A stretch of 64,000 nt of DNA from Thermoanaerobaculales bacterium (GTDB lineage Bacteria > Acidobacteriota > Thermoanaerobaculia > Thermoanaerobaculales > Sulfomarinibacteraceae), in assembly GCA_025456145.1 (NCBI GenBank), contig JALOLD010000018.1:1-64000 (forward strand). Reading direction: 5' to 3'. Under the pieces are notes generated by a model. The model saw only the letters and a program-made list of their open reading frames with translations, was not told where the DNA came from and did not search any database. Below are positions 5,181 to 19,234 of the stretch, piece by piece; the first letter of the stretch is position 1, and the number at the start of each line of letters is the position of its first letter. The translations under genes were made by a program, and so were the position numbers.

Positions 5181-8100
5181 GTGATGGCGACGACCGAAAG
5201 CAGAGACCCGGCGGGCCCGGTTGCCGGGCCGCGGCCCGGGGGAATGCGCGCCTTCCTCGTCGGCCAGGCCCTCGGCCTGCGGCCCGGCGAGGGCGGGCTG
5301 GCGTGGCTCTTCTTCGTCTACTTCCTGGTCCTCACCACGGTGATGTTCGCGGCCAAGTCGGTCCGCCAGGCGTCGTTTATCGACGCCCTCGGCGCCGAGA
5401 ACCTGCCCTGGGTCTACCTCGCGGTGGCGCTGATCTCCTACCCGGTGCTGGTCGTCTACTCGAGGCTCGCGGCGCGGCGCGGGCAGGTCGCCGTAATCGT
5501 CCGCTCGAGCGTGTTCAACGCCGTCGCCTTCGTCCTCTTCTTCGGGCTGTTCGGTCTCGAAGGTCTCGGCCAGCGCAGCGCGGCGGTGCTCTACTACGTC
5601 TGGCTCGGGATGGCCTTCGCGATCGCGGTCTCCCAGGTCTGGTCCTACGCCAACCACGTCTTCGACCCGCGCCAGGCGCGGCGGCTGTTCTCCTTCATCG
5701 GGGCGGGCGGGCTGCTCGGTGCGATCCCCGGCGGGCTGCTCGCCTGGTCGGTGACCCAGGTCGCGGGCACCCGGTACACGCTGCTCGTCACCGCGGCGCT
5801 GATGCTCGCGGTGCCCCTCCTGGTGCTGCTCATCGAGCGCCGGCGGCACAACGCTCCACCGGCCCCGCGGGCCTCGGACAACGCCCCGATCGAAGAGGCC
5901 CGGGGCGGTTTCGCGACGATCCGCGGCTCGCGGATGCTCGGCTACATCACCGCCCTGATGGCCGCGACCGTGATCGTCGGCCAGCTCGTCGGATGGCAGT
6001 TCTACTGGTTCGTCCAGCAACGGACCAGCGAGCTCGACGAGCGGACCAGCGTGATCGGCGGGTTCTTCGTCCTGATGGGCGTCGCCGGCTTCATCTTCCA
6101 GATCGCCTTCACCCAGCGGATCCACCGCGCCCTCGGCGTCGGGGCCGGGATGCGCGTCCTGCCCGCCACCGTCGGCGTGCTCCAGCTCGCGGTGCTGGCG
6201 GCCGCCGCGGCGGAGGCGGCGGTTCTCTTCCCGCTCGTCGTCGCCCTCATGCTCGCCGAGGGAAGCCTGCGGCACTCGGTCGACCAGGCGACGCGCGAGC
6301 TGCTCTTCCTGCCCGTGCCCGAGGCGGCGAGGGTCCGGGCCAAGGCCTTCATCGACGTCTTCGTCCAGCGCTTCGCAAAGGGCATTTCGGCACTGCTCAT
6401 CCTGCCGGTCACCTTCGCCGTGCTGCCGGCGGTGTACGTCTCGTGGTTGACCGCGGTGCTGCTCGGGGGATGGCTGGTGCTCACCGGGCGGGTGCGCCGG
6501 CAGTACGTCCGCGAGTACCGTGCCGGGCTCAAGTCCGGCGTCATTAGCTCGTCGGCGCAGCTCGACCCGACCGATCTGACGACGATCACGACCCTGGTCC
6601 AGGCGCTCGGCAGCGCCGACCCACGTCAGGTCCTGCACAGCCTCGAGCTGCTCTCGGCGTACGGGCAGGGCCACCTTGTACCGCCGCTGCTGCTGCACCA
6701 TCGCGACGCCGCGGTCCGCCGCAAGACCCTCGATGTCCTGGCCGAGGCGGGGCGCGACGACGCCGTCGATCTGATCGAGATGGCGGTCGACGACGACGAC
6801 GCCAACGTCCGCAGCGGGGCGATGCAGACCCTCGCGCGGCTCGGCGGCGCGCGCTCGGCGGCCGTGATGCACGACCGGCTCGACGACCCGGACCCGGAGC
6901 TCCGCGCGACCGCCGTGGCGAGCCTGCTCGGGTCGTCGGACGCGACCGACACCGATCGCGCCGAGAGGGCGCTCACCGCGATGGTCGCCGACCCCGAGGC
7001 GCGGGTGCGCGCCGAAGCGGCGAGGGCCCTCGGCGAGGTGGCCGAGCCGATCGCCCGGGACGCGATGCTCCAGCTGCTCTACGATCCCGACCTGACGGTG
7101 GTGCGCGCCGCGATCCACTCGGTCACGCGGCGGATCGACCGCGACGGTCCGAACCCGTACTACGTCGCGACCCTGATCGCGCTGATGGGTAACCGTCGCC
7201 TCAAGCACGAGGCGCGGGAGGCGCTGGTCGCCATCGGCGAGGACGCGGTCCAGCCGCTCGGCCTGTTCATGGGATCGGACGACGAGCAGATCTGGGTGCG
7301 CCGCGCGGTGCCCAAGACCCTCGCCCTGCTCGGCGTCCAGTCGGCCGCCGAGGTGCTGGTCGACCACCTCGACTCGGGCGACACCCTGCTGCGCTCGAAG
7401 ATCGTCGAGGCGCTCGCCTTCATGCGGACCCGGAGGAGCGGCATCCGGTTTCCCGACGCCGCGGTCCGTGACCAGATCCAGGCCGAGGCGGCACGCTACC
7501 TGCGCTGCCTCGCCGATCTGTGGGCGATCTCGTCGCTCCACGAGGCGCAGCTCGAGGGCCCGGTCGCGATCTGGCGGAAGACCGACCGCGTGCCGACCCT
7601 CGCCCAACAGCTGCTCGCCCAGCGGATGCTGTGCCTGGTCCACAATATCTTCGGGCTGCTCGAGCTCGTCGTGATGCCCGACGACGTTCGCGCCGCCCGG
7701 CGCAGCCTGATGAGCCGCCGGCCGGAGATGCGGGCGCGCGCCCTCGAGTACCTCGACAACACCCTCTCCGGTACGTTGCGGCGGGACGTCTTCTCGGTGA
7801 TCGACGACGCTCCGCCCGAGGAGAAGCTGCGTCGCGCGAGGCTCCATCACGGCATCCTCGTGGAGTCGCCCGAGGCGACCTTCGGACGGCTGATCCGCAC
7901 CGACCCGGGGAGCGACCCCGCCGGCCGGGGGATCGTCCTCGCCGCGCTCCACGCGGTGTGGGCCGAGGAGGTCGAGCCGCTCTACGGGTTGGTGGGCCAG
8001 ACCGCGCAGACCGCGGAGGACCCGCTGGTGCGCCAGACCGCGGAGTGGGTCGCCGCCCGGGCGGGCAGGGTGGCCCCGGGCACGGGGTTGATCGGCAGGG

Positions 8101-8543
8101 GGGAGGCGATCCGGATGGCAGCGATGGCCCACATCGAGATGATGGTCTTTCTCCAGGGCGTCGACCTGTTCGCGCACTGCAACGCCGACCAGGTGCTGCG
8201 GCTCGCCGCGATCGCCGGCGAGCGCGCCCTCGACAAGGGGGCGTCGATCTACCGCCGCGGCGACCCTCCCGACGCGCTGTACTGCGTCGTCGAGGGAAGG
8301 GTCCGGCTCGGCGACGCCGCCGCGCCCGAGCCCGGCACGGTGATCGGTCCGAAGGGGCGCTTCGGCGTGCTCGACATCCTCAGCGGCCGGCCCCGGTCGG
8401 GCGACGCGGTCGCCGAGACCGAGGTGCGACTGCTGACCATCGAGGCCGAGGACTTCTTCGACCTGCTGTCGAACAACATCGACATCGTCAAGGCGCTGTT
8501 CCGCGCCGTCGCCTCCAACGAGGCCTGCGACTCGCTGCTCTGA
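5181..8543 (+). CDS. Npt1/Npt2 (NTT)-like nucleotide-transporter membrane domain fused to HEAT repeats and a cyclic-nucleotide-binding domain
   Basis: Polytopic N-terminus (GGLAWLFFVYFLVLTTVMFAAKSVRQASFIDALGAENLPWVYLAVALISYPVLVVYSRL...); central HEAT-like repeats; C-terminal cNMP-like fold (DKGASIYRRGDPPDALYCVVEGRVRL...GVLDILSGRPRSGDAVAET). Confidence 0.85.
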   Translation: MMATTESRDPAGPVAGPRPGGMRAFLVGQALGLRPGEGGLAWLFFVYFLVLTTVMFAAKSVRQASFIDALGAENLPWVYLAVALISYPVLVVYSRLAARRGQVAVIVRSSVFNAVAFVLFFGLFGLEGLGQRSAAVLYYVWLGMAFAIAVSQVWSYANHVFDPRQARRLFSFIGAGGLLGAIPGGLLAWSVTQVAGTRYTLLVTAALMLAVPLLVLLIERRRHNAPPAPRASDNAPIEEARGGFATIRGSRMLGYITALMAATVIVGQLVGWQFYWFVQQRTSELDERTSVIGGFFVLMGVAGFIFQIAFTQRIHRALGVGAGMRVLPATVGVLQLAVLAAAAAEAAVLFPLVVALMLAEGSLRHSVDQATRELLFLPVPEAARVRAKAFIDVFVQRFAKGISALLILPVTFAVLPAVYVSWLTAVLLGGWLVLTGRVRRQYVREYRAGLKSGVISSSAQLDPTDLTTITTLVQALGSADPRQVLHSLELLSAYGQGHLVPPLLLHHRDAAVRRKTLDVLAEAGRDDAVDLIEMAVDDDDANVRSGAMQTLARLGGARSAAVMHDRLDDPDPELRATAVASLLGSSDATDTDRAERALTAMVADPEARVRAEAARALGEVAEPIARDAMLQLLYDPDLTVVRAAIHSVTRRIDRDGPNPYYVATLIALMGNRRLKHEAREALVAIGEDAVQPLGLFMGSDDEQIWVRRAVPKTLALLGVQSAAEVLVDHLDSGDTLLRSKIVEALAFMRTRRSGIRFPDAAVRDQIQAEAARYLRCLADLWAISSLHEAQLEGPVAIWRKTDRVPTLAQQLLAQRMLCLVHNIFGLLELVVMPDDVRAARRSLMSRRPEMRARALEYLDNTLSGTLRRDVFSVIDDAPPEEKLRRARLHHGILVESPEATFGRLIRTDPGSDPAGRGIVLAALHAVWAEEVEPLYGLVGQTAQTAEDPLVRQTAEWVAARAGRVAPGTGLIGRGEAIRMAAMAHIEMMVFLQGVDLFAHCNADQVLRLAAIAGERALDKGASIYRRGDPPDALYCVVEGRVRLGDAAAPEPGTVIGPKGRFGVLDILSGRPRSGDAVAETEVRLLTIEAEDFFDLLSNNIDIVKALFRAVASNEACDSLL

Positions 8544-8968: not shown

Positions 8969-11731
8969 GTGACCACTGCGGACGAGTTCCGGCGGCGCGC
9001 CGCCTTCGAGGCGGGGCGCTACGGCGGCGGCGAGTGGGTCTTTCTCCGCGAGCTGCTGCAGAACGCCCGCGACGCCGGCGCGTCGCGGGTCGACCTCACC
9101 GTCGAGCGGCGGGACGGCGTCGACCGGGTCGTCTGCGCCGACGACGGCTGCGGGATGAGCTTCGACCACGCCCGCCGCTACCTGTTCACGCTCTACGCGT
9201 CGTCCAAGACAGGCCGTCGAGACATGGCCGGACGGTTCGGCATCGGTTTCTGGTCGGTGCTGCGCTTCCAGCCCGACGAGCTGGTCGTCCGCTCGGCGCC
9301 GGCCGCCGGCGAGGGCTGGATGCTCCGGCTCGACGGCGAGCTCTCCCGGGCCGAGCGTGGCGGCTGCGACCGCCCCCGCGGCACCGAGGTCGAGCTGGTC
9401 CGGCGATCGCGCGGCGACGATCCGGTGGCGGCGGCCCGGCATGCCGTCGAGCGCGACGCCCGCCACCTGCGCCGGCTGCGGCCGGGCGACGAGATCCTCG
9501 AGGTGCGGCTCAACGGGCTCGCGGCGACCGCCGAGATCGCCCTCGACCCGCCGAGCCTCGAGCTCGCCCGACCCGGTAGGCGCGCGGCGGCGGCGCTCGC
9601 CGACCGGGCCCGCGTCGACCTGCTCGCCCACGGTCTGCGGATCCGCACCACCGCCACCCTCGACGAGCTCCTGACCGGCCCGGGCGACCGCCGCCGCCGG
9701 TTCGCCGGGGCCTCCCAGGGCCTGCTCCCGAGGGTCGTCCTCGACGGCCGCCGGCTGCGCGTGCTGATGGCCCGCGGCGACGCCCGGACCGACCGCGAGC
9801 TGCGCCGGCTGGTCGGCCTCGGCCACCGGGCGGTCCGCCGCCTGGTCCGTGGTCAGCTCGACCGCGAGGCCGGGCTCGGGCCGCTCGGCCGGGCCGCCGC
9901 CCGGCTTCGCGAGGTGACGCACACCCGCCGGGCCCGCTGGTGGGCGGCCGCCGCCGCGGGCGTCGTCGTCGTCGGTATCGGCCTCTGGCGGTGGGGAGCG
10001 GCGGCGCCGGGTGCCGTTCCGCGATCCGAGCCGTCCGGCGGTCTGCCGGCCGGGGCGCCCTCGGCGCCGATCGCCGTGCTCCGCGAGGCGGCTGCCGGCT
10101 CGTATCTCGGACCGGCCGTGGACGTCCTCGCACGCGACCCCGTCGCGCCGCCGCTGAGCTATCGTCCCGCCGAGGCACGCCCGATGCTGGCGCTGCTTCG
10201 GCTGACCGCGATCGACGACGGCGGCCGGGTCGTGCCGCCCCCGGCGACCGGCCCGCCCCACCCCTACGTCGGCGCCCGCTGCGCCGAGGCGTGCCTCGAG
10301 ATCGCCCTCGAGCTCGGGGGCGAGAAAGGTCCCCTCCGGCTGCCGGTGCCGACCGGGCACCTGCTCGACCCGGCGAGCCTGCGAATGAGCGGAGGCGCCG
10401 CGACCCTGCGCGCGGCGGATGACGGCGGGCCGGTGCTCGATCTCGACGGCGTTGTCCGTGGACGGCTCGAGTACCGCACCGGTCCGGTCGTCGAGACCGG
10501 TCCGCGGGTCGTCGGCCGGTGGCCCGAGCTCCCGCCGTCGGCGGTCCGGTTCGCCGAACGGCTCGTCGGGCTCGAGCCCGGTTCCGCGGCAACGGCGGCC
10601 CGCGACTGGGTGGCCCGACGGGTGGTGTACGACACCTCGGATGAGGTGGTCCGCCGTCACCGCGAGGCGGCGGTCGGGGGGGACGGCTTCGTCGCTCGCT
10701 GTCTGGCGGTCGGCGCCGGCGACTGCGACGTCCAGAGCGCCGTGCTCGCGGCCATCCTCCACCGGGCCGGCTTCGAGGTCCGGCTCGCGGTGGGCTTCGT
10801 GGGGGTCGGCGGCCGCGCCCTGCCCGGGCTCCACGCCTGGGTCGAGGTCCGGACCGGGGACGGCTGGCGGGAGGTCGACCCGAGCGGTGGCGGGCGCTCG
10901 ATCCCGGACGACGCGGGGAGCGGGACGGGTCCGGGCGACGAGGCGGCCCGCACCGACCCGCGGATCGCGGCGGCGTCCGGCTCGCGGCTCGTCTCGACGC
11001 CGGTCGTCCCGCTGCTCGCCGCCCTGGCCCTGGCGGCGACGACCGTGGTCGCCCTTCGCGCTCGCACCCGGCTGCGCGGCGCCGCCTGGGGCGAGTCGGC
11101 GGACCTCGCCGGGCTGCTGCGCGGCGCGCTGACCCGGCCGGAGGCCTTCGCCGAAGCGCCGGCGCTGTTCAGCCGGCGCGTCGTCCCGGTGCTCGGCGGC
11201 GCCGCCCTGAGCCTCGAGCGCGCCAACCGCCTCGCCCGCCGCGGCCGGCTGGTGGCCGGGAGCGGGAGCGGCCTCGCCCGGGCCGCGGCGGCGGCCGGCC
11301 GCGCGGTGGTCGACACCCGGCGTCCCGAGGGACGGGCGGTGGCGGCGGTGCTCGGCGCGGTCGATCTCGACCGCTGGGACGCGATCCGGGGTCGCGGCGC
11401 GACGCACCCGGTGTGCGCGGATCTGGTGAGGGCGGCGGCCGGCGTGGGGGAGTGTTGGGAGGTGCGGCTCGGCCCCGGACGAGGCGACGAGATCGAGGTT
11501 CTCGACGGCCGGGCGGCGGGTCTCGGTCGCTGCCGGATCGTCGCGGTGGACGGTGGGGGACGGCTCTGGCGGGGCGTCGCGTCCCTCGCCGAGCGGTCGC
11601 CCGCGGCGGCGGCGCTGCTGCTCGGCGAGTCGGTGTCGGAGCGGCTGCGGTGGCCCGCGGCCCGGTCGCGGCGGCTCGTGTCGAGGCTCGCGGCGGCGGC
11701 CCTCGCCGAGCGGCGGGAGCATCTCCGGTGA
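8969..11731 (+). CDS. Hsp90/HtpG-like GHKL ATPase domain - TM - transglutaminase-like domain - TM - C-terminal domain protein
   Basis: N-box ELLQNARDAGAS, G1 DDGCGM, G2 AGRFGIGFWS; TM WWAAAAAGVVVVGIGLW; TGase core GDCDVQSAVLAAILHRAGFEVRLAVG...LHAWVEV..GWREVDPSGG; second TM VPLLAALALAATTVVAL. Confidence 0.88.
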   Translation: MTTADEFRRRAAFEAGRYGGGEWVFLRELLQNARDAGASRVDLTVERRDGVDRVVCADDGCGMSFDHARRYLFTLYASSKTGRRDMAGRFGIGFWSVLRFQPDELVVRSAPAAGEGWMLRLDGELSRAERGGCDRPRGTEVELVRRSRGDDPVAAARHAVERDARHLRRLRPGDEILEVRLNGLAATAEIALDPPSLELARPGRRAAAALADRARVDLLAHGLRIRTTATLDELLTGPGDRRRRFAGASQGLLPRVVLDGRRLRVLMARGDARTDRELRRLVGLGHRAVRRLVRGQLDREAGLGPLGRAAARLREVTHTRRARWWAAAAAGVVVVGIGLWRWGAAAPGAVPRSEPSGGLPAGAPSAPIAVLREAAAGSYLGPAVDVLARDPVAPPLSYRPAEARPMLALLRLTAIDDGGRVVPPPATGPPHPYVGARCAEACLEIALELGGEKGPLRLPVPTGHLLDPASLRMSGGAATLRAADDGGPVLDLDGVVRGRLEYRTGPVVETGPRVVGRWPELPPSAVRFAERLVGLEPGSAATAARDWVARRVVYDTSDEVVRRHREAAVGGDGFVARCLAVGAGDCDVQSAVLAAILHRAGFEVRLAVGFVGVGGRALPGLHAWVEVRTGDGWREVDPSGGGRSIPDDAGSGTGPGDEAARTDPRIAAASGSRLVSTPVVPLLAALALAATTVVALRARTRLRGAAWGESADLAGLLRGALTRPEAFAEAPALFSRRVVPVLGGAALSLERANRLARRGRLVAGSGSGLARAAAAAGRAVVDTRRPEGRAVAAVLGAVDLDRWDAIRGRGATHPVCADLVRAAAGVGECWEVRLGPGRGDEIEVLDGRAAGLGRCRIVAVDGGGRLWRGVASLAERSPAAAALLLGESVSERLRWPAARSRRLVSRLAAAALAERREHLR

Positions 11732-13215
11732 GGTCCGACGAGCTGCTCGCGATCGACGTCGCCGCCGAGGTGGCGACGCTCTGCGCCACCCAGGTCCAGG
11801 GCCCGTGGCAGGTTCCGGCCGAGCTGGTGCGGCTCGCGGTCGCCCGGGGCGCCGCGCGGGTCGACGTCGACCGGGTCCGGGGTGGGCTGCGTCTGCGCTG
11901 CGCGGGTCGCCTCGCCGACCAGGGCGAGCTGCGCGACCTCGCCCTGGTGTTCGACCCGAAGGCCGAGCGCGGCGATCGCCAGGCCGCGATCTCGCGGTCC
12001 GAGGCGGCCGGTCTGCAGGCGCTGATGTGGGCGGCGGGCCAGCCCGGCGCCCGGCTCGTCATCGAGGTTTACTCGGGCGACGACTCGGCGGTCCTCGAGG
12101 TCCGGGACGCCGGGGTGCGGGTCGGGCGCGGCGCCGTGGCCGCTCCACCCGGGACCACGGTGGTCTGGCGGTGCCGGGGGATGCGGACGAGGCGGGCCCT
12201 CGCCTGGCTCGAGACCGCGTGCCGCTTCGTCCCGGTCCCGATCTCGGTCGCGGGGTGCGACCTGCCGCGCGGCTTCGAGGGCGGCCTCTACCGGATGCGG
12301 CTCGCCGGGCCGCTCGCGACCGAGCTCGCGATCACCGCCGCCGGCGACACCCCGTCGTTGTGGCTGCTCGAGCACGGCGTGCTGTCGGCGCGGGCGGTGG
12401 TGCCGGGCTACCCTGCGTTCTCGGCGGCGATCGAGCTGAGCGGCGTCGCACCACCCGCCTCGAGCGCGGATGCGCTGCGCGCGGCGGCCGACCCCTACCT
12501 CGCGGGTCTGCTCGACCAGGCGGCGAGGATGCTCGTGCTGCTCGTCGACCGGCTGCCGACCGTGGACGAGCCGGTGCGGACCCGTCTCACCTCGCTGCTG
12601 CTCGGCTTCGCGGTGCGCGACATCCTCCGGCACGAGATCGAGTCGCTCCCGGTCGTCGCGGTGCGCCGGGCCGGATCCCGGAGGTTCGTCACCCCGGCCC
12701 GTCTCGCCCGGTGGGCGCGCCGGCGGGGTGGGGTCGTGGTCGCGACCGAGCCCGGCCAGGCCGGCGGGGACCCGGCCGCGAGCCTGGTCGTCGAGGCGTC
12801 CACCGAGGAACGCGCGTTGCTGTCCGAGCTGCTCGACGTCCGGGTCGAGCGGGTCGGTCGCCGGACCGCCGCCGGCGAGCTCGCCGACCGGCTCCGCCGG
12901 GCCTGGTTCGCCGCGTCGTCGCGCCTCGGACCGGGCCCCATCGCGCCCGGTCGGCTGCGCGCCGACGAGCGCCGGTTGCTCGAGGCCGCGACGGCGGCCG
13001 GGGTCGGGCTCGCTCTCTGCCCGGGGCGCCGCCGGGCTCGGCGGCGCGGGGAGCACTGGCTGGTCGGGAGGGAGCGGCCGGAGGTTCGCGCGGCGGTCGC
13101 CGCGGTCGCCGAGGAGAGCTCGTGGCTCTACCCGGCGCTGCTCGCGATGATCGGCGAGGACGGCGGGGCGGGGGAGACCGTCCGCCGGGCGTGGGTCGGC
13201 GGTCTGGTCAGTTGA
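11728..13215 (+). CDS. Hypothetical protein, probable degenerate GHKL/Hsp90-like partner of the upstream gene
   Basis: GTG at 11728 overlaps upstream TGA (GTGA); ELVRLAVARGAARVDVDRVRGGLRLRCAG... aligns by eye with ELLQNARDAGASRVDLTVERRDGVDRVVCADDG but lacks N-box Asn and DxGxG. Confidence 0.75.
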   Translation: MRSDELLAIDVAAEVATLCATQVQGPWQVPAELVRLAVARGAARVDVDRVRGGLRLRCAGRLADQGELRDLALVFDPKAERGDRQAAISRSEAAGLQALMWAAGQPGARLVIEVYSGDDSAVLEVRDAGVRVGRGAVAAPPGTTVVWRCRGMRTRRALAWLETACRFVPVPISVAGCDLPRGFEGGLYRMRLAGPLATELAITAAGDTPSLWLLEHGVLSARAVVPGYPAFSAAIELSGVAPPASSADALRAAADPYLAGLLDQAARMLVLLVDRLPTVDEPVRTRLTSLLLGFAVRDILRHEIESLPVVAVRRAGSRRFVTPARLARWARRRGGVVVATEPGQAGGDPAASLVVEASTEERALLSELLDVRVERVGRRTAAGELADRLRRAWFAASSRLGPGPIAPGRLRADERRLLEAATAAGVGLALCPGRRRARRRGEHWLVGRERPEVRAAVAAVAEESSWLYPALLAMIGEDGGAGETVRRAWVGGLVS

Positions 13216-13588
13216 CGATCTCGCACTCGTCGGCGTTCATGAGCATGGCGCTGGCCTGGGCGTCGGCCGGGTCGGCGACGATCATCGCGTGCTCGAAGGT
13301 CGCCCGGAGCAGGTCGGGCTCGACCCCGTCGGCGAGCAGCGCCCAGACGACGGCGGTCAGCAGCTCCTCCTGCATCTGACTCTGGACCTCGTCCCGCGAG
13401 GTGACGACGCCGCCGAAGATCGCGTTGTCGGCGCTGCCGCCGCGCGGGATGAGCACCGTCAGGCAGGCCCCGAGATCCTGCTGCTGCGCCCCCGGAGCGG
13501 TGCGGATCAGATCGACGAGCTTGCGCTCGAAGTCCGCGAACCAGCCGGGCCGCTCGCCGCTGCCGCCGTCGTCGTACAGGTCGCTCAT
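13208..13588 (-). CDS. Hypothetical protein (126 aa)
   Basis: MSDLYDDGGSGERPGWFADFERKLVDLIRTAPG...; coding-like composition; convergent 8-bp overlap with preceding gene. Confidence 0.7.
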   Translation of the reverse strand: MSDLYDDGGSGERPGWFADFERKLVDLIRTAPGAQQQDLGACLTVLIPRGGSADNAIFGGVVTSRDEVQSQMQEELLTAVVWALLADGVEPDLLRATFEHAMIVADPADAQASAMLMNADECEIVN

Positions 13589-13766
13589 CGTCGGCTCCCT
13601 TCGCCGGACGAACGCCGGATCGGCGCCGTCGATCAAGGGAAAGCACGAATCGTGCCGGATCGGGGAGCGCCCGGCCGCCGACCGGGGGAAGCGGCGCCGT
13701 TCCACTTCGGTACGGCCCGGTCGCCCGGGCCCCAACCCGGTACGCCGCCGCCGGCCGGCCGTCGCC

Positions 13767-16418
13767 TCAGGGGCTGAGACGGCGGCCGGGGCTGCGCGGC
13801 GGGGTCGTCGGCCGGACCAGGGTCTCCGCCTCCGCGATCGCCGTGCTCTGCGAGACCGCGCCGCCGACGACGAGCAGCCGGCCGTCAGCGGCGATCGTCG
13901 CGGTGTGAAAGCCGCGGGCCGCGCCGAGCGACGAACCGACCGACCACGCCATGGCCGCCGGGTCGAAGGTCTCGGTCCCCGCGATCGGGGCGCCCGAGTA
14001 GTCGAGACCGCCCGTGACCAAAACCAGGCCGTTGGCGAGCTTGGTCGCGGTCGCGCCCTGGCGGATCGTCCCGGTCGGACCGGCGATCGTCCAGCGGCCG
14101 TTGGCCGGGTTCCAGAGCAGCGTCATCGGCGCGTTGGCGATCCCGGCGAGCAGTACCCGGCCGTCGTCGAGGGCGACGGTGACCGGCATCTGCCAGTCGG
14201 CCGGCAGCGGCGCAGCCCGGCGGAGGGTGTCGGTCGCCGGGTCGAAGAGGGTCAGCTCGCGGGCGCCGGCGATGACCGCCCGGCCGTCGGCGAGGCTCGC
14301 CATACCGGGGTAGAGGCGCCGGCCGGCCAGGCTCCCGGCCACCGTCCAGGTCTCCGAGGCGGGGTCGAAGACCTCGACCTCGCGGACTTCGCCGTCGTGG
14401 GGCGAGGCGCTCCAGACGCCGCCCGCGACGAGCACCCGGCCGTCGTCGAGGGCGAGCAGGGAGTGCCCGGTACGATCGTGGCTGAGCTGACCGGTGACGG
14501 TCCAGGCGTCGATGGCCGGGTCGTAGATCTCGCTGTCGACCTCCTGCCCGGGCGTGCTTCCGACGACCAGCACCCGGCCGTCGGCGAGGAGCGCGGCCTG
14601 AACCATGCCGGCGGCGCCGCTCGGCGCCGCGGCCGGTGTCCAGGCGCCGGTCGAGGGGTCCCAGAGCTCGGCCGTCTGCGATCCGCCGCCGACGACGAGG
14701 ATCCGACCGTCGGCGAGGGCGACCGCGGCGTGCTGGGCGCGGGCGGCGGCGAGGGGCGCGGCGGCGACCCACTGCCAGCATCGGAAGTCGGTGCAGATCA
14801 GCAGGGCGCCGTCGTGCGAGCAGGTCGCGTCCTCGAGCTCGGCGGTGACGCTCCAGTCGAAGCTGCCGGTCGAGACGTAGGCGTGGCTCGCGGTGGTGTC
14901 GAAGGAGCTCGCGCCATCGCCGAAGACCCACCCGTACGAGGCCTCGCCCTCGCAGTTCGCCGTCTCGAGGCTGCCCGAGAAGGCGACCGGCTGGCCCGGC
15001 CAGCCGGTGGCGCTGACCGAGGCGTCGCACCACAGGGCGCAGCCCGAGCCGAGATCGGCGGTGAAGACCATCATCTCCGAGGCCCATCCGGTTGCGAGGT
15101 CGTGGATCGCCAGGTTGGTCGGGACGCCGTCGTAGCGCTTGGAGTCGGGGGCCGTACCATCGTCGAAGAAATCCCCCAGGTAGTAGAAGTCTCCGGCGTC
15201 GGCCTGGCCGCCCTGCTCGATCTCCTCGAGCCCGTCCGCCTCCATCAGCCTGAGCAGCTTGTGCTCGGTGTAGGAGTTGTCGTAGAGGGGCTCGCCGTTG
15301 TCGTCGACGCGGGCGTCGACGTGCCAGATCAGGACACCGTGCCGCGGGAGCTCGAGGTCGTTGCCGGCCCGGTTGCGGACCTGCGCCATGAAGTACTCGC
15401 CGGCCGGGTCGGTCATCGGGTCGCCGTGCATGAGCACCACTGCCTCGCCGGCCTCGGCCGACGGCAGGAGCGCGATCTCGTGGCTGTCCTGGTTGTAGAC
15501 CTCGGGCTCGATCCAGCCCAGCACCCACTTCGAAAAGCAGTTGTGGTCGCCCCAGTTGCCGTCCATCTGGTCGAGCCCGCCGAGGCCGCCCCGGGGACCG
15601 ATGCCGTCGTCGTAGTCGTAGTAGTCGGGCAGGCCGAGGGCGTGACCGGTCTCGTGGATCAGCACCTCGGGGCTGAACTCGCCCGGCCAGTCGTAGTTCT
15701 CCCACTGCCACGAGTAGGTTCCGATCCTCACTCCGTCGACCGTGAAGTCGTCGTTCCAGAAGCTCGTCTGGTAGCCCCACCAGAACTCCGCCCACTCGCC
15801 GTGCGGTCCGGTCCAGACCACCGCGAGGTAGTCGATGACGCCGTCGCCGTCGTTGTCGTAGCGCGCGAAGTCGTGCCCCTCTCCGTCGAAGTGAGCGATC
15901 ACCTCCTTGATCAGGCTCTGGCGCCCGATGTAGGACTCGTTGACGCTCTCCCGCGGGTAGGGCGTCGTGTACCAGCCGAGCACGGATCCCGAGATCTCGA
16001 GCTGGCCGTAGGACGAGCGCCGGTAGAACTCGGTCAGGCTCTCGTAGGGGAAGCCCGTCGGCTCGCCGTCGCCGAAGATCCGGTCCTCGACCACCGCCGG
16101 GTCGGTGACCCCCGGCATGTCGGCGAAGGCGACCAACAGGGTGAGGACCTCCGGGGCGCCGCTCGCCGGCAGGACCCCCGGCGCGTCGGGCAACGCCTTG
16201 GCGGAGGCGGCGCCCGCGCGGAGGCGCGCCGCGAGCTGGGGCGCCATCCGGTGGTTGCCGAACCCGCGGGCGGCCGCCACCCGGTCGGGCAGCGTGCCGT
16301 CGCTGCGATAGCGGGCGAGCTGCTCCGGGGTCGGCGGCTCGAGGGCGGACACAGGCGACGGTCCGAACACGACGAGGCCCGTCGCGAGAACGAGGGTGGC
16401 GGAGAGTCGTGCGTACAT
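13767..16418 (-). CDS. M6-family metalloprotease (immune-inhibitor-A-like) with PKD-like domain and Kelch-like repeats
   Basis: Signal peptide; HETGHALGLPDYYD zinc-binding site; PKD-like YGWVFGDGASSFDTTASHAY; repeated LADGRVLVVGG.../ELWDPSTGAWT Kelch motifs. Confidence 0.93.
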   Translation of the reverse strand: MYARLSATLVLATGLVVFGPSPVSALEPPTPEQLARYRSDGTLPDRVAAARGFGNHRMAPQLAARLRAGAASAKALPDAPGVLPASGAPEVLTLLVAFADMPGVTDPAVVEDRIFGDGEPTGFPYESLTEFYRRSSYGQLEISGSVLGWYTTPYPRESVNESYIGRQSLIKEVIAHFDGEGHDFARYDNDGDGVIDYLAVVWTGPHGEWAEFWWGYQTSFWNDDFTVDGVRIGTYSWQWENYDWPGEFSPEVLIHETGHALGLPDYYDYDDGIGPRGGLGGLDQMDGNWGDHNCFSKWVLGWIEPEVYNQDSHEIALLPSAEAGEAVVLMHGDPMTDPAGEYFMAQVRNRAGNDLELPRHGVLIWHVDARVDDNGEPLYDNSYTEHKLLRLMEADGLEEIEQGGQADAGDFYYLGDFFDDGTAPDSKRYDGVPTNLAIHDLATGWASEMMVFTADLGSGCALWCDASVSATGWPGQPVAFSGSLETANCEGEASYGWVFGDGASSFDTTASHAYVSTGSFDWSVTAELEDATCSHDGALLICTDFRCWQWVAAAPLAAARAQHAAVALADGRILVVGGGSQTAELWDPSTGAWTPAAAPSGAAGMVQAALLADGRVLVVGSTPGQEVDSEIYDPAIDAWTVTGQLSHDRTGHSLLALDDGRVLVAGGVWSASPHDGEVREVEVFDPASETWTVAGSLAGRRLYPGMASLADGRAVIAGARELTLFDPATDTLRRAAPLPADWQMPVTVALDDGRVLLAGIANAPMTLLWNPANGRWTIAGPTGTIRQGATATKLANGLVLVTGGLDYSGAPIAGTETFDPAAMAWSVGSSLGAARGFHTATIAADGRLLVVGGAVSQSTAIAEAETLVRPTTPPRSPGRRLSP

Positions 16419-16512: not shown

Positions 16513-18357
16513 CTACTCGCCGATCTGACGGCGGAGCTCGTCGATCCGGCGGTTGACCTCGGCCAGCGAGAGGGTCCGGTAGCGGACCGGCAGGAACCGG
16601 GTGTCGGTGCACTCCTTGACCGCCACCAGGTCCATCAGCTCGAGGCGCTCGGTGTGGGCGGACGGACGGACCTCGGCCGCGGCGTCGGCGATGATCTCGA
16701 CGAGGCTCCGCCCGCCGCCGTCGGCGGCCTGGGTGGCGTGGACCCGGAGCGCCCGGACCAGGATGCCCTCCATCTCGTTGCCGCCGATGCCGGCGTCGTC
16801 GGGCAGCTCGGGGAGCTCGTCGGCCGCCACGGGCAGGCCGACCTTGCGGGCCATCGCGGCGAAGAGGGCGCGGCGACCGGCGGCGTCGCCGGGCGGGAAT
16901 AGGGGGATGTGGACATCGAGCCGGCCCTGGCGCTTGAGATCGACCTCGACGAGGTCCGGGCGGCTGGTGGCGAACACCCAGATGATCTTGCCCCGGTTCG
17001 AGGTGTCGCTCATCTCCTTGGCGAGCATGCCGTAGACGCGGCCGGAGAGACCGGAGTCGCCGGTCCCCGAGTCGCGCTTGCCGGTCATCTGGTCGGCCTC
17101 GTCGACGAACACCACCACTTGGCCGAGGGCGCGGAGGATGGTGAAGACCTTCTCGAGGTTGCCCTCGGTGGCGCCCACCCAGCGCTCGCGGAAGTTCCGT
17201 AGCGCCACCACCGGGATGCCGATCTCGCCGGCCCAGCACTCGACGAGATAGGTCTTGCCGGTGCCGATGCGGCCGCAGAGCAGATAGCCCATGGGGATCG
17301 CTCGGGTGACGCCGCGGCGCAGCAGCTCGGCATCCTGGCGGAGCCACTGCTTGGCCTCGTCGTGCCCGGCGACGTCGTCGAGGGTGCGCGCCGACTCGAC
17401 GAACGAGATGCGCCCCGCGGCCTCCTTCTCGATCAGCTCCTTCTTCATCCGGCTCAGGGTCTTCACGGTCAGCGGTCGTCCCGAGCCGAGGGCCTGGAGG
17501 ACCAGCGACCGTGCCGCCACCCGGGTGAGCCCGACCAGCCGCGCGGCGAGCTCATCGACGGTCATCTCGAAGGCCGAGGCGGCGTCGGCGCGGTCGGCGA
17601 CGAGGTGATGCAGGAAGGCGCCGAGCTCGCCGGACGAGGGCAGCGAGACGGCGATCTTGGCGTTGTACGAGCTCTCGACGAGGAGGGGGTGGAGGTCGGT
17701 GAGGTTTTCGGTGACCAGCACGGTGGCCACGAAGGCCTCGGCGAGGGAGGGGTCGGCGGCCCAGTCGAGGAGCTGGATCAGGGTCTGGCTGAGGTCGGAG
17801 GAGAAGTGGACCGGCTCGCCGCGGGGGGCGAGGAAGTGGGCGTAGTCGATGACCACCGCGACCCGCAGCGGGTCGGCGACGAGTTCGCCGTCGTCGCCGC
17901 GTCGGGTCCGGTGCTGGCTGCCGCGGAGGAACCGGTTGACGATCTCCAGGGCGCGGCGGGGATCGCGCGGCAGCAGCCCGCCGAGGTCGAGGACGCTGTC
18001 GCCCATCTCGGGCAGCGACGCCCAGCCGGTGCCGCGGAAGCTGTCGAAGGCCTTGAGAAAGCGGTGGAAGTGGTCGCCGCCCCGGGGCACCCGGAGGCCC
18101 CGGCCGCGGTCATAGAAGATCACCACCTCGAAGGGGGCCAGCATCACCTCGGCGAGGAAGTCCCCGAGGGGCAGGAACCGGGTGGCGCCGTCGGCGCCGG
18201 TGGCGGGCACCAGGTCGCGGACGTTGCCGTGGAGCACGAACTGGCCGGCCGAGCCCGAGCGGAAGAGGCCGCGCATCTCCTCGGCCCAGGAGGGCAGCGG
18301 CGCCGACCCGCCGGCGCCGGACCCGTCGCCGCGGGCCGGCTCGGTGATCTCAGGCAT
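16513..18357 (-). CDS. Ycf46-like AAA+ ATPase (degenerate N-terminal half plus classical AAA module)
   Basis: Walker A CGRIGTGKTYL, Walker B VVVFVDEADQM, sensor region VFATSRPDLVEVDLKRQGRLDVHI; preceding GLTRVAARSLVLQAL...RISFVESARTLDDVAGHDEAKQWLR resembles the Ycf46 linker. Confidence 0.85.
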   Translation of the reverse strand: MPEITEPARGDGSGAGGSAPLPSWAEEMRGLFRSGSAGQFVLHGNVRDLVPATGADGATRFLPLGDFLAEVMLAPFEVVIFYDRGRGLRVPRGGDHFHRFLKAFDSFRGTGWASLPEMGDSVLDLGGLLPRDPRRALEIVNRFLRGSQHRTRRGDDGELVADPLRVAVVIDYAHFLAPRGEPVHFSSDLSQTLIQLLDWAADPSLAEAFVATVLVTENLTDLHPLLVESSYNAKIAVSLPSSGELGAFLHHLVADRADAASAFEMTVDELAARLVGLTRVAARSLVLQALGSGRPLTVKTLSRMKKELIEKEAAGRISFVESARTLDDVAGHDEAKQWLRQDAELLRRGVTRAIPMGYLLCGRIGTGKTYLVECWAGEIGIPVVALRNFRERWVGATEGNLEKVFTILRALGQVVVFVDEADQMTGKRDSGTGDSGLSGRVYGMLAKEMSDTSNRGKIIWVFATSRPDLVEVDLKRQGRLDVHIPLFPPGDAAGRRALFAAMARKVGLPVAADELPELPDDAGIGGNEMEGILVRALRVHATQAADGGGRSLVEIIADAAAEVRPSAHTERLELMDLVAVKECTDTRFLPVRYRTLSLAEVNRRIDELRRQIGE

Positions 18358-19234
18358 TGGGCTCCTCCTCGATGGCGGTCATCGGCAGCTCGGGCAGGGC
18401 CGTGGCCGCGTCGTCGGCGCCGAGGGCGCCGAGAAGCTCGGCGTTCTCCTCCATCCACCGCGAGGTCTCGCGCATCGTGCTGGCGACCGAGTCGAGATGG
18501 TAGGAGAGGGCGTCCGGGCTCGCGCCGACCGCCGACTCCTCGCGGATCAGCTGAACCTGGCGTTCGATGCGCTCGAGCTCGGCGTTGATCACCGCGAGGC
18601 TGTCGAGGGCCCGCTGGTGGTTGTCGAGGCGCTTGCGCTGGATCGCCAGGGTCCCCTCCAGCGAGCGGGCCAGGGGGCTCGCCGGGTCGGCGGCAGCGAG
18701 CCGCCGCTCGAGCTCCCCGATCTCGTGCTCGAGCACCTTGCGCTCGAGCGAGCTGAGGTGCTCCCGGATGGTGTCCCGGGAGGAGAGCAGGCGGAGGAAG
18801 ATCCCGAGCAGCTGGTTGAGCGAGCGGGTCCGGAGGTCGCGGAAGTTGCCGAGGCTGTTGTCCTCGAGGGCCTCGGACATGCCGAGGATCCGGCGGCACT
18901 CCTGGAGGAGGGAGCGGTAGCGGTGCCGGCTCTCGCCCGACAGCCGCGCCACGACGGTCTCGACCCGCTCGCTCCAGGACCTCTGGGAGGCCAGCAGCTG
19001 CTCGGCCTGGATCAGCCGCTGGAAGCGCGGGCTGGAGGCCCTCAGGTAGAGGTAGAGGATCTCGCCGCCCAGGCCGAGCAGCCAGAACCCGGGGTTGAAC
19101 ATGCCGGCCACCACGAGCCCCGCCAGGGCCATCGAGTTGAGCGGCAGCTGGCCGAGGAAGGGGATCTTCGTGCGGCGCTGGAAGGCCTCCATCAGGTAGC
19201 GCCAGTAGGTGAGCTTGATATCAGGCTCGGCCAT
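18350..19234 (-). CDS. Membrane protein with long coiled-coil region, operon partner of the AAA+ ATPase
   Basis: Hydrophobic segment MALAGLVVAGMFNPGFWLLGLGGEILYLYL followed by heptad-rich helical sequence; 8-bp overlap with the AAA+ gene. Confidence 0.8.
   Translation of the reverse strand: MAEPDIKLTYWRYLMEAFQRRTKIPFLGQLPLNSMALAGLVVAGMFNPGFWLLGLGGEILYLYLRASSPRFQRLIQAEQLLASQRSWSERVETVVARLSGESRHRYRSLLQECRRILGMSEALEDNSLGNFRDLRTRSLNQLLGIFLRLLSSRDTIREHLSSLERKVLEHEIGELERRLAAADPASPLARSLEGTLAIQRKRLDNHQRALDSLAVINAELERIERQVQLIREESAVGASPDALSYHLDSVASTMRETSRWMEENAELLGALGADDAATALPELPMTAIEEEPNA

Follow-up and report, generated by a model that had tools for sequence, protein, structure and literature searches.

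The periplasm contains no ATP, and it is a long-standing question how bacterial enzymes beyond the inner membrane are powered and timed. In Pseudomonas aeruginosa, the gene of the transglutaminase TgpA adjoins a MoxR AAA+ ATPase gene, encoding an ATPase of another class than the one described below and as a separate protein. TgpA (PA2873) is a membrane protein with six transmembrane (TM) helices and no Hsp90 domain, and its periplasmic transglutaminase domain, anchored to the inner membrane and carrying a conserved Cys-His-Asp triad, is active (PMC3507681). The other closest families are the Hsp90 family (HtpG, TRAP1 and Hsp90) and the PRK14083/HSP90 family and sacsin-type GHKL proteins. To our knowledge, the latter two have no membrane transglutaminase module. 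Here we describe two overlapping genes, referred to as A and B, in a window of 64,000 nt from a Thermoanaerobaculales bacterium (Acidobacteriota; Sulfomarinibacteraceae; assembly GCA_025456145.1, contig JALOLD010000018.1, positions 1–64,000 of the forward strand). We give an even chance to the reading that A and B make up a two-gene, membrane-embedded Hsp90-type machine controlling an extracytoplasmic transglutaminase-type enzyme. No published description of a GHKL/Hsp90-transglutaminase fusion was found in the open-access library searched, which covers few subscription papers and no bioRxiv preprints; an earlier note on this DNA had likewise known of no named system with this architecture.

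Gene A (8969–11731, + strand) starts with GTG and encodes an Hsp90-like ATPase of 920 aa that contains a TM-transglutaminase-TM insertion, as recognised from its open reading frame (ORF), Pfam, conservation and an AlphaFold2 (AF2) model. Gene B (11728–13215, + strand) encodes a predicted pseudo-Hsp90 partner of 495 aa, identified from its ORF and AF2 model, and no TM helix was found in the window's copy. The GTG start of B overlaps the TGA stop of A as GTGA. Both ORFs lie where the earlier note had placed them, with the start of B inside the stop codon of A, and the A-B architecture is confirmed as a sequence observation. A is present in one copy in the genome. Only two domains, HATPase_c_3 and Transglut_core, scored above the Pfam cut-offs in A, and B had zero Pfam matches.

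The first 165 residues of A (8969–9463, + strand) were assigned to the GHKL/Hsp90 N-terminal ATPase domain by the Pfam HATPase_c_3 match (residues 26–122, E 7e-11), by a PDB profile search that retrieved the E. coli HtpG structure 2ior (E 8e-10), and by conservation in an alignment of 23 members. The ATPase residues Glu28 (9050–9052), Asn32 (9062–9064), D58/G60/G62 and G91/G93 are invariant in 23/23 sequences; the intact Hsp90/HtpG-like nucleotide-binding set previously read from the window's copy thus holds across the alignment. With the N-box, DxGxG and the glycine-rich second motif all present, A belongs, by its motifs, to the GHKL ATPase superfamily. The following residues, 166–318 (9464–9922, + strand), correspond to the first part of the Hsp90 middle domain according to hhalign and conservation, and include Arg269 (9773–9775), which is an arginine in all 23 sequences and aligns with the catalytic-loop arginine of Hsp90 ('SRE/SRQ'; ISRQ in HtpG). 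Against a reference profile of 16 HtpG/HSP90-family sequences, residues 20–294 of A aligned with HtpG 27–380 with a probability of 99.3% (E 1.6e-20). In the AF2 model (pLDDT 80, pTM 0.56), the best structural matches were TRAP1/Hsp90 (E 6e-13), with MutL further down. A therefore shares with the Hsp90 family the order of N-terminal (N) and middle (M) domains, the catalytic Glu, Asn and DxGxG, the middle-domain Arg, and a predicted fold that, like that of B, matches Hsp90 structures first. However, PF00183 (Pfam HSP90) is not among the Pfam hits of A, and the scores against NF010683 (PRK14083/HSP90 family protein; 39.7 bits, cut-off 455, E 2e-10) and the sacsin N-terminal model (48.7 bits, slightly under the cut-off of 50, E 8e-13) indicate likeness to these families below both cut-offs. 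Since A is below or absent at the curated family cut-offs (PF00183, NF010683), we refer to it as Hsp90-like rather than as a canonical Hsp90. It also differs from the Hsp90 family in that two TM helices and a predicted periplasmic transglutaminase divide its scaffold, in that it is encoded together with an apparently ATP-dead paralogue, and in a C-terminal domain that is just weakly similar.

The membrane hairpin begins with TM1 (residues ~321–342; 9929–9994, + strand), detected by hydropathy and the positive-inside pattern and modelled by AF2 as a helix at 320–342, and ends with TM2 (residues ~678–699; 11000–11065, + strand), supported by hydropathy/topology and AF2. Between them, sequence and AF2 model delimit a predicted periplasmic region (residues 343–677; 9995–10999, + strand) in which a beta-rich domain precedes the transglutaminase domain. 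The transglutaminase core (residues 536–638; 10574–10882, + strand) matched Transglut_core (PF01841) with 41.2 bits against a cut-off of 23 (E 2e-10), and its match among solved structures was 6g49, the protein-glutamine gamma-glutamyltransferase TgpA (E 2e-6, PDB profile search). The triad Cys586 (10724–10726), His622 (10832–10834) and Asp637 (10877–10879) is invariant in 23/23, and, with this triad within Transglut_core, A falls by sequence in the transglutaminase-like superfamily; Cys438 and Cys442 are kept in the 16 closest members. The order proposed earlier, with a TM helix, a transglutaminase core with its Cys-His-Asp triad, a second TM helix and a C-terminal domain, was recovered. Summed over the 23 proteins, Lys and Arg residues beside the TM helices number 163 on the ATPase/C-terminal side versus 70 on the transglutaminase side, and the positive-inside bias puts the transglutaminase outside in 21 of them, with 2 ties and none opposed. 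The transglutaminase domain is thus predicted to be extracytoplasmic and the ATPase cytosolic, in line with the earlier note, and as the hairpin interrupts the Hsp90-like scaffold, both ends of A would be cytosolic. In its membrane-anchored, predicted periplasmic transglutaminase domain A resembles TgpA, from which it differs in carrying an ATPase of its own and in having two TM helices.

The identical anatomy would suit a sensor working from the outside in, with the transglutaminase-like domain recognising or processing an envelope signal. The enzyme's state would be relayed inward and alter the Hsp90 clamp, which, together with B, would let go of clients in the cytosol or hold them. Hsp90s classically hold clients, and B, being soluble, could be the messenger. 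Nevertheless, the triad and the ATPase set are both fully invariant, which suggests that both ends work as enzymes, and no conserved downstream signalling gene adjoining the pair was found; we regard such a sensor as unlikely.

The C-terminal cytosolic part of A (residues 700–920; 11066–11728, + strand) bears a weak but consistent resemblance, in hhalign, register and secondary structure, to the last part of the Hsp90 middle domain and to the C-terminal (dimerisation) domain. Its hhalign score against the Hsp90 C-terminal profile (20.5) was reached by 0/100 column shuffles (maximum 17.7), and the reversed profile scored 9.7. The counterpart in B (residues 281–495; 12568–13212, + strand) was assigned by register and by secondary-structure order only, the latter being that of the C-terminal part of A. 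Direct local profile comparison of the two C-terminal parts was suggestive and not significant alone (E 0.006, probability 17%). The registers obtained in separate A-B, A-Hsp90 and B-Hsp90 comparisons coincide exactly at the Hsp90 'LELNPKHP' segment. These sequence comparisons give good but not conclusive support to an Hsp90-like N-M-C scaffold into which the transglutaminase hairpin has been inserted. A plain tandem fusion joining three unrelated parts was set aside because the first ~300 residues of A keep the Hsp90 N-M order with the catalytic arginine, and because its C-terminal part resembles the end of Hsp90. Thus, the ATPase-membrane-transglutaminase fusion described in the earlier note stands for A, and its form is refined from a tandem fusion to an insertion.

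The first 165 residues of B (11728–12222, + strand) form a degenerate GHKL domain according to hhalign and a residue check: Glu32 is kept, the N-box Asn is replaced by Leu36 (11833–11835), and there is no glycine-rich ATP loop, the region of which is replaced. Using hhalign, residues 23–220 were found homologous to the N-terminal half of A (98.6%, E 8e-16), and B matched the HtpG/Hsp90 profile (96.4%, E 1e-9); the B profile also reached MutL structures (E 8e-4). The top 50 PDB matches of the AF2 model of B (pLDDT 85, pTM 0.67) all belong to the Hsp90 family (Hsp90, TRAP1 and HtpG; E 1e-12, alignments of ~600 columns). TM-scores against Hsp90 structures were 0.4–0.5, so the domain arrangement differs. 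Both the profile match to A and the AF2 model therefore bear out the GHKL fold that had been suspected in B. Among 26 relatives of B, the N-box Asn is missing in all, with Leu, Arg, Ala, His, Asp or Thr instead, while the N-box Glu is kept in most, with Gln in the deepest branch. The suggested loss of the N-box Asn is thus family-wide; that of DxGxG applies to the window's B and is partial in the family, since DxG survives in several relatives (e.g. DDGHGM in L039, DNGDGI in L047 and DNGSGI in L055). Judged by sequence and model, B is a pseudo-Hsp90, with a GHKL and Hsp90 middle-domain fold and without the motifs of an active ATPase, and it looks like a paralogue of the scaffold of A without the insertion. 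Separately, B is shortened to ~380 aa in three loci (L050, L052 and L056).

Scanning genome contigs and phylum members revealed near-full-length relatives of A in Acidobacteriota and Myxococcota at 23–56% identity. The architecture of A is not a chance product, because full-length relatives exist in two phyla and all GHKL and transglutaminase catalytic residues are invariant in the 23 aligned. A B-like gene follows A in 26/26 loci with downstream DNA in view (the window, 15 from genome contigs and 10 from a deeper acidobacterial branch), which agrees with the conserved neighbourhood expected from the earlier note, and the pairing is, as far as these sequences go, obligate. The two genes overlap by 4–10 nt in 25 of the 26; the exception is L034, with an 87-base gap. 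Pairwise distances of A and B are correlated with r = 0.96 over 23 pairs, a value reached by 0/2000 permutations.

The A family is rare and patchy: long matches were found in 11/297 sampled Acidobacteriota and, in a shallow scan, in 3/189 sampled Myxococcota, and in the order of the window's bacterium 10/37 genomes have A, all of one family. Such patchiness could point to a defence or conflict system, with ATP-thresholded release of a transglutaminase-fold peptidase, and published conflict systems do contain GHKL ATPases and transglutaminase-like peptidases (PMC3710099, PMC8195603). We consider this very improbable, as the PADLOC matches for A are generic GHKL ones only (TmtA, MzaB) with none for B, defence genes were not recognised in the neighbourhoods examined, no copies of A were found in phage or plasmid records, the catalytic domain is not variable, and the triad is predicted to lie outside the cytosol.

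The window's genome (G000, 92% complete) carries A-B but gave no match to canonical HtpG (PF00183). Together with the Hsp90 fold of both proteins, this could be taken to mean that the pair is a membrane-anchored chaperone, whose clamp serves the folding or assembly of clients in the cytosol or inner membrane while the transglutaminase acts outside independently, with no mechanical coupling. This seems even less likely than the sensor. Two genomes (G016 and G034) carry both HtpG and A, so that A is no simple HtpG substitute, and its role as an HtpG replacement is not supported. Moreover, among the full-length relatives examined in two phyla, the ATPase and the transglutaminase were never found in separate chains.

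For the two-gene machine controlling an extracytoplasmic enzyme, we suggest the following mechanism. A would be an active Hsp90-like ATPase whose ATPase domain and C-terminal part share the cytosolic side of the membrane, with the transglutaminase on the other. B would be a soluble, ATP-dead Hsp90-like paralogue, co-produced with A through translational coupling, and most likely contributes the inactive half to an asymmetric clamp formed with A. As ATP drives this clamp open and shut, it would pull the two TM helices, one from each clamp half, and thereby turn the extracytoplasmic cysteine enzyme on or off or move it into place. The enzyme perhaps cross-links or cuts envelope proteins. In favour of this stand the full Hsp90 active site, which is invariant in 23/23 together with its arginine from the middle domain, and the Hsp90-specific fold matches of both proteins. 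The invariant triad with its TgpA match, the positive-inside bias, the homology of the N-terminal halves, the constant pairing, the distance correlation and the consistent C-terminal registers speak for it as well. We infer the binding of B to A, a regulatory role for B, the direction of coupling, the ATPase and enzyme activities and the kind of substrate.

Several points weigh against this mechanism. As to the putative A:B heterodimer, the distance correlation is expected for genes inherited together and is no proof of binding by itself. The relative domain placement in the model of A is uncertain (pTM 0.56), and the motion of the clamp may not be passed on by single TM helices. In addition, the Hsp90 C-terminal match is individually weak (hhalign probability ~1% or less), and the C-terminal score of B against Hsp90 was equalled by 3/100 shuffles. 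The deepest B branch has Gln in place of the N-box Glu, and several of its members have ~380–400 aa, with much of the C-terminal part gone.

We put at just under even the probability that the pair represents an undescribed class of transmembrane machine, namely an asymmetric Hsp90-like pair, with one active and one ATP-dead member and a membrane-threaded clamp, in which ATP bound and hydrolysed in the cytosol directly gates a transglutaminase-type enzyme outside it. If true, one polypeptide in which a membrane-crossing enzyme breaks up an Hsp90-type ATPase scaffold would answer directly, and testably, how such enzymes are powered and timed, and cytosolic ATP could drive chemistry beyond the membrane. 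It would also mean an Hsp90-like protein integrated in the membrane, and an Hsp90 scaffold that has a pseudo-Hsp90 partner of its own, a case of relevance to why Hsp90 works as a two-armed clamp.

Upstream of the pair, a recurrent neighbour (5181–8543, + strand), identified by Pfam and neighbourhood comparison, encodes a 1120 aa protein with an NTT-like transporter, HEAT repeats and a cyclic-nucleotide-binding domain (NTT-HEAT-cNBD), a fusion type described previously (PMC5381601). In the window's genus, a second acidobacterial genus (G311) and four myxobacterial genomes, this gene lies beside A-B or within ~12 kb of it, in varying orientation, and its full-length form is single-copy in the seven examined genomes holding it. 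Across the order, it is present in 9/10 genomes with A versus 5/27 without A (Fisher p 1.4e-4, not corrected for phylogeny). It was rejected as an obligatory third gene, several genomes having it on another contig or not at all, and since several carry it on another contig we regard it as an associated gene and not a component. No third gene is common to all A-B loci examined; SDR, IgGFc-binding, sigma-70, protein kinase-TPR, C69 and zinc peptidase genes each occur near the pair in a few relatives.

Just 3′ of the pair, a 133 aa protein with no Pfam match (13211–13609, − strand) and an M6-peptidase/PKD/Kelch protein with a signal-peptide-like N-terminus (13770–16418, − strand) occupy the same places in L031 and L032. 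Further on, overlapping ORFs at 16516–19234 (− strand) encode a hydrophobic/coiled protein and an AAA ATPase with weak similarity to IetA defence profiles; they are not in the loci of the relatives. In the deep branch, a C69-family peptidase gene follows B in L050, with related genes close to A-B in L052, L053 and L056. Finally, three myxobacterial loci share a conserved gene directly upstream of A (L034:6287–7888, L037:6177–7934 and L044:6285–7922), which contains IgGFc_binding (PF17517) in L034 and L037 and is sequence-related in L044.

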